A stretch of DNA of 64,000 bases, from assembly GCF_020682705.1 (NCBI RefSeq), contig NZ_JAGTTN010000001.1:186001-250000 (forward strand), given 5' to 3'. This stretch comes from Microbacterium allomyrinae. GTDB lineage: Bacteria; Actinomycetota; Actinomycetes; Actinomycetales; Microbacteriaceae. The notes under the pieces are model-generated. The model saw nothing but the letters and a program-made list of their open reading frames with translations, was not told the DNA's origin and made no database searches. Shown here piece after piece: positions 39,367-42,300 of the stretch. The position numbers and the translations under genes are program-made. Positions within the stretch are counted from its first letter, which is position 1; every line of letters begins with the position of its first letter.

Positions 39367-42300
39367 ATGGTTCGAACTTCCGCAAGACTGGGACCGGTCA
39401 CAGTCCTGACCACGGCCCTCGTCGCGACGGCACTGGTCGCAGCACCCCCGGCCTCGGCCGCCGAAGGTCCGGTCGAGGCCGGCATCGTCGTGGAAAAGGT
39501 GGAGAACCTGCCGGCCGACTTCATCAGCGGCGTCGACGTGTCGTCGGCGATCGCGCTGGAGCAGTCGGGCGTCGTCTTCCGCGACGCCGCCGGCCAGCCC
39601 GCAGACCTGTTCGACGTGCTCGCCGACGCCGGCATCACCGACGTACGCGTGCGCGTGTGGAACGACCCGTTCGACGCCGCCGGCAACGGGTACGGCGGCG
39701 GCGACAACGACGTGGCGCACGCCGTCGAGATCGGGCAGCGCGCGACGGATGCCGGACTCGGCGTGCTCGTCGACTTCCACTACTCCGATTTCTGGGCCGA
39801 CCCCGCCAAGCAGCAGGCGCCGAAGGCCTGGGCCTCGCTCACGGTCGCTGAGAAGGCGGTGGCGGTCGAGGACTTCACCGCGGATGCCCTCGCGCAGTTC
39901 GCCGCAGCGGACGTCGACGTGCAGATGGTGCAGGTCGGCAACGAGACCAACAACGCCGTCGCGGGCGTGAGCGGCTGGGACGGCATGGCCCAGATCTTCG
40001 CCGCCGGCTCCGCGGCGGTGCGCGCGGCGTTCCCCGACGCACTCGTGGCCGTGCACTTCACGAACCCCGAGACCAGCGGCCGCTACGCCGGGTATGCACA
40101 GAACCTCGCAGCGCGCGGCGTCGACTACGACGTGTTCGCATCGAGCTACTACCCGTTCTGGCACGGGACGCTGACCAACCTCACCTCGGTGCTCTCTAAC
40201 GTCGCGAGCACATACGGCAAGAAGGTGATGGTCGCAGAGACATCGTGGGCCTACACGCTGGAGGACGGCGACGGGCACGGCAACGTGATCGATCTGGCGT
40301 CCGAGGCGACGCAGTATCCGGTCAGCGTTCAGGGCCAGGCGACCGCGATCCGCGACGTGATCCAGGCGGTGGCGAACGTCGGCGCGGCGGGGATCGGCGT
40401 CTTCTACTGGGAGCCGGCGTGGCTCCCAGTCGGTCCGCCCTCCGCCCTCGATGCCAACAAGCTGCTGTGGGAGCGCGACGGCTCGGGCTGGGCGTCGAGC
40501 TTCGCCGGCGAATACGATCCCGACGACGCCGGCGTGTGGTTCGGCGGCTCCGCCTGGGACAACCAGGCGCTCTTCGGCCACGACGGCACGCCGCTGGAAT
40601 CGCTCAACGTCTTCTCCTACGCCCGCACGGGCGCCATCGCGCCACGCGAGGTGACCGCGGTCGAGTCGGTCGCCCTCTCGGTGACCGAGGGCTCGCCCGT
40701 CGTCCTCCCGGACACCGTCACCGTGTCCTACAACGACGGCTCGACCCAGGCCGAGTCGGTGACCTGGTCGGCGGCCGCCGAATGGATCGCCGGGCCCGGC
40801 ACCTACGCGATCAGCGGGGTGACGGCATCCGGACACGACGCTTCGGCGACCGTCACCGTGAGCCAGGTGAATCTCCTGCGCAGCCCCGGCTTCGAATCCG
40901 ACACGGCCGCCTGGACCACCACCGGCACGGCGCTCACAGTGGGCGCCGCCGACGATCCTCGCACCGGCGCACGCTCGACGCACTTCTACTCGGGCGCGGC
41001 ATACGCGTTCACCCTGTCGCAACGGGTCGATGACGTGCCCGGCGGCAGCTACGTCGCGAGGGCCGCGCTGCAGGGCGATGGGGAGGATGCCGACTCCGAC
41101 GTGCATCTGAATCTCGAGAGCGGGTCGGGCTCGGCATCCGTCCCCTTCGTGATCGCGGGCTGGCGCAACTGGTCGGTGCCCGCGACAGGTGCGGTGACCG
41201 TGGCCGATGGCGCAAGTGCGACCGTCACGATCTCGGCGACGCTTCCGGCGGGAGCATGGGGCACCATCGACGATGTCGAAGTGGTGCGCGAACTGCCCGC
41301 GGGCGCCGACACGACGGCGCTCCGAGCGCTCGTGGACCGCGCGGCCGCCCTCGATCGCAGCATCTTCAGTGCCGCATCGCTCGCGACGCTGGACGACGGC
41401 GTCGAGATCGCGAAGGTCGTGATGGGCGCACTGTCGCCGACCGCCGACGCGGTCGCCGAGGCATCGGAGCTTCTCGACGCCGCGTTCGAGGGCCTGGTCC
41501 TCATCGGCGAGCCGCCCGCACCGGTCGTCGCGCCTACCGCGCTCACCGTCCTCGACGGCGAGCCGATCGAGCTCCCGGAGGTCGTCGCGGTGACCCGGTA
41601 CGACGGGACCACGATCGAGGAAGCCGTTCTCTGGTCCGATGCGGCGCAATGGATTCCCGGCACCGGTGTCTACGACATCGTCGGTACGACCGCGAGCGGA
41701 CTCCGCGCGACCGCGACGGTGACGGTCACCGAGCGCGACTGGCTCCGCAACGGCGGGTTCGAAGCCGCCGACGTCTCGATGTGGGTCCTGGGCGGCGCCG
41801 GCGCCCGCATCGCCGAGAGCGCGGATGCCGCTGAAGGCACCCGCGCCGTCGACTTCTGGTCGGACTCTGCGTACTCCTTCACGGTGTCGCAGGATGTCAC
41901 GGGCCTTCCCGAGGGCGACTACGTCCTGTCGTCGACCACGCAGGGCGGCGGCTCCGGCGCCGACGACGCGCTCACGCTCTCGGCCCGCTCCGACGCCACC
42001 CACGCAGACGCCGCGCTCGAGCTCGCCGGATGGCGGGAGTTCCGCACCGCGCAGACTCCCGCGATCGCGGTCGGCGCGGACGGCGCGCTCACCGTCTCGG
42101 CATCGCTCGCGCTCACCGCCGGCGCGTGGGGCACGATCGACGACTTCCGCCTCGTGCGCCACGGCGGGAATGTCGACGGCGCACCGCTGGCCGCCGATCT
42201 CGCAGCGGCCGAGGGGATCGACCTCGCGGGGTACATGCCCGACACGGGAGCGGTCCTCCTCGCCGCGATCGAGCGGGCGCGCGTCGTGCTCGCCGCGGAT

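Follow-up and report, generated by a model that had tools for sequence, protein, structure and literature searches.

The window analyzed in this study, a 64,000-nucleotide stretch of the Microbacterium allomyrinae genome, contains a galactan-utilization operon on the forward strand and, divergent from it, a gene encoding a LacI-family regulator of 338 amino acids (32056 to 33072, minus strand; PF00356 and PF13377). The operon begins with a GH42 beta-galactosidase gene (33262 to 35304; PF02449, 1.2e-140), followed by genes for a sugar ABC transporter binding protein (35462 to 36700; PF13416, with weak similarity of the GanS and MalE types that falls short of the curated cut-offs), a MalF-like permease (36774 to 38399; PF16296 and PF00528), and a MalG-like permease (38396 to 39319; PF00528). 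The last gene encodes a GH53 endo-galactanase with a signal peptide (39367 to 42963; PF07745, 1.5e-123). Its ATG is 47 nt from the malG stop codon and is preceded, at a distance of 6 nt, by the ribosome-binding sequence GGAG, read from the sequence at 39357 to 39360 on the forward strand.

Two operators are located between the LacI gene and the GH42 gene: operator 1, the perfect palindrome ACTGTGACCGGTCACAGT (33126 to 33143; matrix score, 33.5), and operator 2, 69 bp from operator 1 (33195 to 33212; score, 30.3). A preliminary description of this DNA had proposed that a further LacI-type operator is embedded in the signal-peptide codons of the galactanase gene, and the 18-mer ACTGGGACCGGTCACAGT was indeed found on the forward strand at 39387 to 39404 (score, 30.3), 20 nt downstream of the A of the GH53 start codon. 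Its reverse complement is identical to operator 2, as had been stated, and it differs from the palindrome of operator 1 by one mismatch. Like the promoter sites of the regulator, it is an even palindrome with a central CG; as in the roadblock class of operators, it lies within coding sequence, here 6.2 kb downstream of the GH42 operators, and its codons read xxA-CTG-GGA-CCG-GTC-ACA-GTx, or R-L-G-P-V-T-V. No ATG, GTG, or TTG codon was found in frame downstream of the GH53 ATG within the signal peptide; the absence of a later in-frame start, together with the good ribosome-binding sequence, supports the GH53 start codon well and speaks against its being wrongly assigned in the window.

The claim that such a match is unlikely to arise by chance held: with up to three mismatches allowed, there were six strand matches at three places in the window, whereas shuffled sequences gave 0.08 on average and never more than 2. 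In the whole 4.0-Mb genome, ACTGKGACCGGTCMCAGT occurred exactly at three places and with one mismatch at one. Within three mismatches, the genome count (4 per strand) was not above that of a reversed-pattern control (5 per strand); therefore, weight is given only to exact and near-exact matches. The three shared flanking bases (AAG) that had also been counted are present, but they add little weight, since at two of these positions the base is the one most often found in the flanks of GH42 operators generally. The fourth genomic site, ACTGGGACCGGGCACAGT, which has one mismatch and a score of 26.2, is outside the window (L004:1501-1518; G000:C1:1175892-1175909), directly past a GH43-like gene and approximately 210 nt 5' of a gene for a lipoprotein-like sugar-binding protein (PF01547); it is possible that this site marks a further member of the regulon or belongs to a paralogue.

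Among 22 rows for loci with an intragenic site, which include one duplicate, 19 have an orthologue of the regulator adjoining the operon, and the DNA-binding helix is near-constant. In G084 and G066 the orthologue is elsewhere in the genome, and L061 was examined at the locus only. An orthologue with an identity of at least 64% was present in all 12 genomes searched, including that of the window, so that the cognate regulator expected for this class of operator was found. E. coli LacI carries a C-terminal tetramer helix. The ligand-binding (Peripla_BP_3) match of the regulator studied here extends to residue 337 of 338, so that a helix of that kind would have no space; the C-terminal tetramerization helix that characterizes the lac O2 type of operator was thus not found, in a test that covers the LacI-type helix only.

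Survey of GH53 genes in related genomes

A symmetric matrix was trained on GH42-upstream sites only (207 sites with no more than three mismatches from TGTGACCGGTCACA), and training sites were found in 103 of the 105 loci with a GH42 gene. The background amounted to 12 scores of 8 or more in 1,507,061 positions of the same loci, and two of the five best background scores came from positions shortly before a GH42 gene on the minus strand of L062. Of 148 GH53 genes, 21 had a site within the initial 60 nt of their coding sequence, whereas the matrix scan placed none in the corresponding stretch of any other operon gene (GH42, 0/103; binding protein, 0/107; MalF, 0/109; MalG, 0/109; total, 0/428). 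Deeper inside all five genes, a single site was found, in approximately 750,000 positions scanned. Tandem GH53 copies in G1090, G1008, and G864 contributed three further intragenic sites, giving a total of 24 GH53 genes in 22 genomes. By genus, the site was found in 5 of 89 Microbacterium genomes, 12 of 26 genomes of genus code g10, and 2 of 3 genomes of genus code g9, as well as in three named records: a metagenome-assembled "Demequina lutea," Demequina litorisediminis, and an uncultured Arachnia. The spacing of operator pairs was 67 to 72 bp in 64 of 74 two-site GH42 promoters, and that of GH53-upstream pairs clustered at 68 to 70 and 77 to 78 bp.

The survey covered 89 of the 91 Microbacterium genomes with a GH53 match, leaving out G643 and a fragment in G510. 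The order-level search took matches of more than about 390 bits, which left out distant GH53 paralogues (identity of about 46% or less), and from at least 80 named loci, the 31 judged by their titles to be actinobacterial entered the analysis. Removal of repeats reduced 162 sequences to 149; L059 was dropped later as a repeat of L210, except from the regulator-neighbor table. The first survey counted the best GH53 copy per locus, and further copies and matches from nine regions were added afterwards. Regions L335 to L352 (18, including four repeats) had no site, and L353 had upstream sites. Loci L331 to L333, which came from the class search and carry another family code, had no site, and the N terminus of L334 holds unknown letters. 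Start codons in relatives were set by a simple score, with a one-by-one check for the intragenic set only.

Where the site lies varies with the position of the gene. Of the 105 GH53 genes directly behind malG (one duplicate removed), 20 had an intragenic site, 10 had an upstream site, and 75 had none; the 43 located elsewhere comprised a single gene with an intragenic site (L304, behind another GH53 copy), 37 with upstream sites, and 5 with none. It follows from the 75 genes behind malG without any nearby site that the site is dispensable. GH53 genes that presumably have their own promoter carry the operator at that promoter, and genes reached by read-through from GH42, with a short gap that holds the ribosome-binding site, may carry it inside the gene.

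On a FastTree phylogeny of 146 GH53 catalytic domains, the presence of the intragenic site changed at least 14 times, and at least 10 times when only well-supported branches were counted; this set was made without L059, L045 (truncated GH53), and L318 (two-piece GH53) and held 20 of the 21 intragenic rows. A short IQ-TREE search with 81 chosen rows gave corresponding minima of 14 and 9 changes. Gain and loss are indistinguishable on the GH53 trees. The four nearest relatives of the window (L206 to L209, 86 to 87% identical over the query) each have two GH42 operators and no intragenic site, the difference being due to amino acid and codon changes; L209 may retain a decayed form, with a score of 3.0. 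The site is therefore not conserved among its closest kin. A scan of relatives for conservation of these codons, which had been suggested as a check, gave a divided result: the site is absent from the four nearest relatives, but in the GH53 N termini scanned, no L-[GR]-[AP]-V-T was found without the operator codons, ACG at the Thr codon aside. On the tree, the GH53 of L052, from a metagenome-assembled contig titled Demequina lutea, pairs with that of L263, which has the family code of the window, and not with those of other Demequina; mis-binning and gene transfer are candidate readings.

Constraints on the signal-peptide codons

The intragenic site has the same reading frame, offset 2 mod 3, in 21 of 21 cases and in the three tandem-copy genes. 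The site is spelled by x-CTG-GGA-(C/G)CG-GTC-ACA-x or a close variant of it, which encodes L-[GR]-[AP]-V-T. In this frame, a perfect palindrome would read L-stop-P-V-T, with an in-frame TGA. At the stop-making base, none of the 21 tabulated intragenic sites has T (19 have G and 2 have A, the latter changing Gly to Arg); T is found at this base in 145 of 205 GH42 sites and 47 of 86 GH53-upstream sites, and A is found in 19 of the 205 GH42 sites. If the sites were turned around, all 21 would contain a stop codon. The TGGGA or TGAGA variant seen in GH53 genes is therefore what the reading frame permits, given that the palindrome would produce an in-frame TGA.

These observations bear on the tie to operator 2 that had been drawn from the shared 18-mer. 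The identity is exact, but it does not reflect a special link between those two sites, since the GH42 operators of the remaining four Microbacterium genomes that carry an intragenic site all have T at the variant base. For the same reason, copying of GH42 operator 2 into the GH53 gene is not favored.

Codon choice within the sites was distinct from that elsewhere in the same first 35 codons: GGA accounted for 20 of 20 Gly codons in the sites versus 14 of 47 elsewhere, ACA for 17 of 23 Thr codons versus 9 of 43, and AGA for 10 of 12 versus 3 of 34 (Fisher tests were run on the codon counts). Given the peptide, the codon test for an operator this good yielded for the window a P value of 5.8e-5 when codon usage was taken from the operon and of 3.6e-4 when it was taken from the pooled N termini of site-less GH53 genes; with the latter usage, the 21 loci ranged from 1.1e-4 to 1.3e-2. 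The codon and site counts treat loci as independent, and the tree serves as the guard against kinship. An early peptide control, in which 48 of 56 15-mers spelling LG[AP]VT had GGA and ACA, took any frame on both strands and so included promoter operators. At the Thr codon, ACG replaces ACA in 7 of the 24 genes, all from g10; ACG alters a base at which 202 of 205 GH42 sites have A, and the ACG-bearing sites are probably weaker.

Between loci, the identity of the site DNA was 0.88, and that of the 18-nt flanks was 0.36 and 0.42. The alikeness of the site DNA, the dissimilarity of the flanks, and the presence of two lipoprotein-type signal peptides indicate that it is the operator that is shared, not the signal peptide. 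By eye, the lipoprotein-type signal peptides are those of the GH53 proteins of L280 and L287, in which the site falls within the hydrophobic core; in the genomes of these loci (G1090 and G864), a tandem second GH53 copy likewise has an intragenic site.

Discussion

In this study, we have examined an 18-bp site at the start of the last gene of a galactan operon. A match far beyond chance and the recurrence of such sites at GH53 starts support its description as a LacI-type operator, and judging from the sequence comparisons, it is very probably a real operator under selection. Its position inside signal-peptide codons is very probably genuine as well; the dual demand on these codons, to encode a signal peptide and to specify an operator, is borne out by the fixed frame, the avoidance of the stop codon, and the codon tests.

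How the site would act is less certain. The preliminary description had suggested either a roadblock or a looping site, and of these, a roadblock is favored, by inference, whereas looping is weakened by the domain match that extends to residue 337 of 338. We infer that the LacI protein binds the site, blocks elongation, and responds to an inducer, and we consider elongation block to be its probable main mechanism. In the uninduced state, bound repressor would stop RNA polymerase that had leaked through from the GH42 promoter, which would keep the secreted galactanase below the transporter and the beta-galactosidase encoded earlier in the operon; in the presence of an oligosaccharide inducer, the promoter and the intragenic gate would both open. 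The median promoter-like signal was 3.96 for genes with an intragenic site, 3.30 for site-less operon genes, 6.69 for stand-alone GH53 genes, and 7.53 for GH42 genes, although the GH42 promoter of the window itself scored only 2.27 and a consensus scan of 33060 to 33290 found nothing. In L280 and L287, the end of the malG match is only 14 to 15 nt from the GH53 start. The promoter-like signal before genes with an intragenic site, which lends weak support, and these short gaps together favor a repressor-dependent block of elongation into GH53. A LacI roadblock is described as reducing reporter transcription to about 13% (PMC6593788).

The main rival of elongation block is that GH53 has a promoter of its own, located in the terminal part of malG or in the short gap behind it, with the operator repressing initiation or early escape; we regard this as unlikely but deserving of serious consideration. 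Of 43 loci with a stand-alone GH53 gene, 37 have operators that precede its start, and 8 of the 21 loci, all from Demequina or g10, have a second site between malG and GH53, 51 to 73 nt past the malG match. A promoter in that region would have an operator on either side, and in these eight loci an internal promoter fits as well as a block does. Against it, the signal before genes with an intragenic site is about that of site-less operon genes, the gaps of 14 to 15 nt in L280 and L287 leave no room for a promoter outside malG, and, as reported for B. subtilis, a fusion revealed none before the equivalent ganB gene (PMC5472308). A scan of 39150 to 39450 was also negative; however, the same scan misses the GH42 promoter of the window, so that a promoter could easily be overlooked and the scan is not decisive.

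Two further readings are, in our view, improbable. In one, the site is an auxiliary operator that loops to the GH42 operators 6.2 kb upstream and raises repression of the main promoter. Both GH42 operators are strong, and a distant LacI operator in a coding region is known in lacZ (cited in PMC4052901); however, the regulator lacks the LacI-type tetramer helix, the intragenic site is missing from most loci in which GH53 trails malG (75 of 105 are site-less near GH53), and looping leaves unexplained why sites occur at GH53 starts and not at the starts of other genes. In the other, hardly to be credited either, the site has no regulatory role and is spelled by a common signal-peptide motif or by N-terminal codon bias. 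The L-G-A/P-V-T peptide does fit the core of a signal peptide, the use of rare codons is higher close to gene starts (of 320 Gly codons among the initial 35 codons of site-less GH53 genes, 60 are GGA), and same-frame near-misses with scores of 3.0 to 7.9 occur in five site-less loci. Yet the 15 other CTNGGNSCNGTNAC matches in the same genome include none with the operator codons and one with GGA, the codon test for the window remains low with N-terminal usage (3.6e-4), the signal-peptide DNA flanking the site is unlike between loci, two of which have lipoprotein-type signal peptides, and a site is missing from the starts of all 107 binding-protein genes, whose products likewise begin with signal peptides. 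In both the codon counts and the codon test, rare-codon bias at gene starts proved insufficient as an explanation.

Elongation block by a LacI-family repressor has precedents. The PurR site in E. coli purB is taken to block elongation and lies deeper in its gene. Like the site described here, it is a LacI-family repressor site within a coding region, although no signal peptide is involved; to our knowledge, neither repeated evolution nor a frame analysis has been described for it. E. coli galE has an internal operator of the same kind as lac O2, and both of these operators lie in the first gene of their operon and work with looping. The site studied here, in contrast, is in the last gene, 6.2 kb away, and its repressor is without a LacI-type tetramer helix. 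The PurR operator inside purB (He et al., 1992) and lac O2 in lacZ are both cited in PMC4052901, a large survey that puts intragenic operators at less than 1% of LacI-family sites; lac O2 resembles the present site in being a coding-sequence operator downstream of the promoter operators of the same regulator.

Among operons of similar makeup, Streptomyces scabies CebR is described as having one site 14 nt before the bglC start and another at the transporter promoter (PMC4890002). As in the window, a LacI-family regulator is associated with a transporter operon and a terminal glycosidase gene with a site of its own, but from that description the site is upstream of bglC and there is no dual coding with a signal peptide. 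The product of bglC is an intracellular-type beta-glucosidase, and CcpA of B. subtilis is a LacI-family protein too. A CcpA cre site has been proposed as a roadblock to read-through before rocG (PMC4348106); unlike the GH53 site, it is described as an intergenic site of global catabolite control, not one in signal-peptide codons. An equivalent galactan operon is B. subtilis ganSPQAB, which encodes a transporter, a GH42-type beta-galactosidase, and, last, an endo-galactanase under the control of the LacI-family repressor GanR (PMC5472308). There, attenuation has been proposed before the galactanase gene, the attenuator being a terminator (PMC5472308). As described, the GanR sites differ from those in the window in being located at the ganS and ganR promoters and in having the unrelated motif AGTAAA-n-TTTACT, and the attenuator is not an operator.

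Among the titles and abstract openings listed from the open-access literature, none pointed to a report of an operator within the signal-peptide codons of a GH53 gene. LacI-family operators inside genes have been described before, and what seems to be new is their repeated placement in a signal peptide, in one frame and with avoidance of the stop. In the broadest reading, for and against which we find the case evenly balanced, Actinobacteria have repeatedly written a repressor-controlled elongation gate into the GH53 signal peptide; the frame would always be the one whose residues suit the membrane-spanning core, symmetry would be given up at the stop-making base, and the signal peptide would be a recurrent home for the operator. 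Repeated gain or loss at the same place makes the conflict between protein code and DNA-binding code measurable in replicate, through the locked frame, the fixed orientation, stop avoidance, and forced rare codons. If the gate reading is true, these genes would be a bacterial example, seen in replicate, of codons put to dual use, with a compromise that can be measured. It would also suggest how an operon could restrain a costly secreted enzyme separately from the uptake genes, and it carries the warning that codon optimization of such genes would wipe out the regulation.

A different arrangement was seen in L300, L107, and L298, where long perfect or near-perfect palindromes (42 nt in L300, by eye) centered on GGGACCGGTCCC occur approximately 50 nt past malG; in these loci, the operator would lie inside what would be a strong RNA hairpin between malG and GH53.
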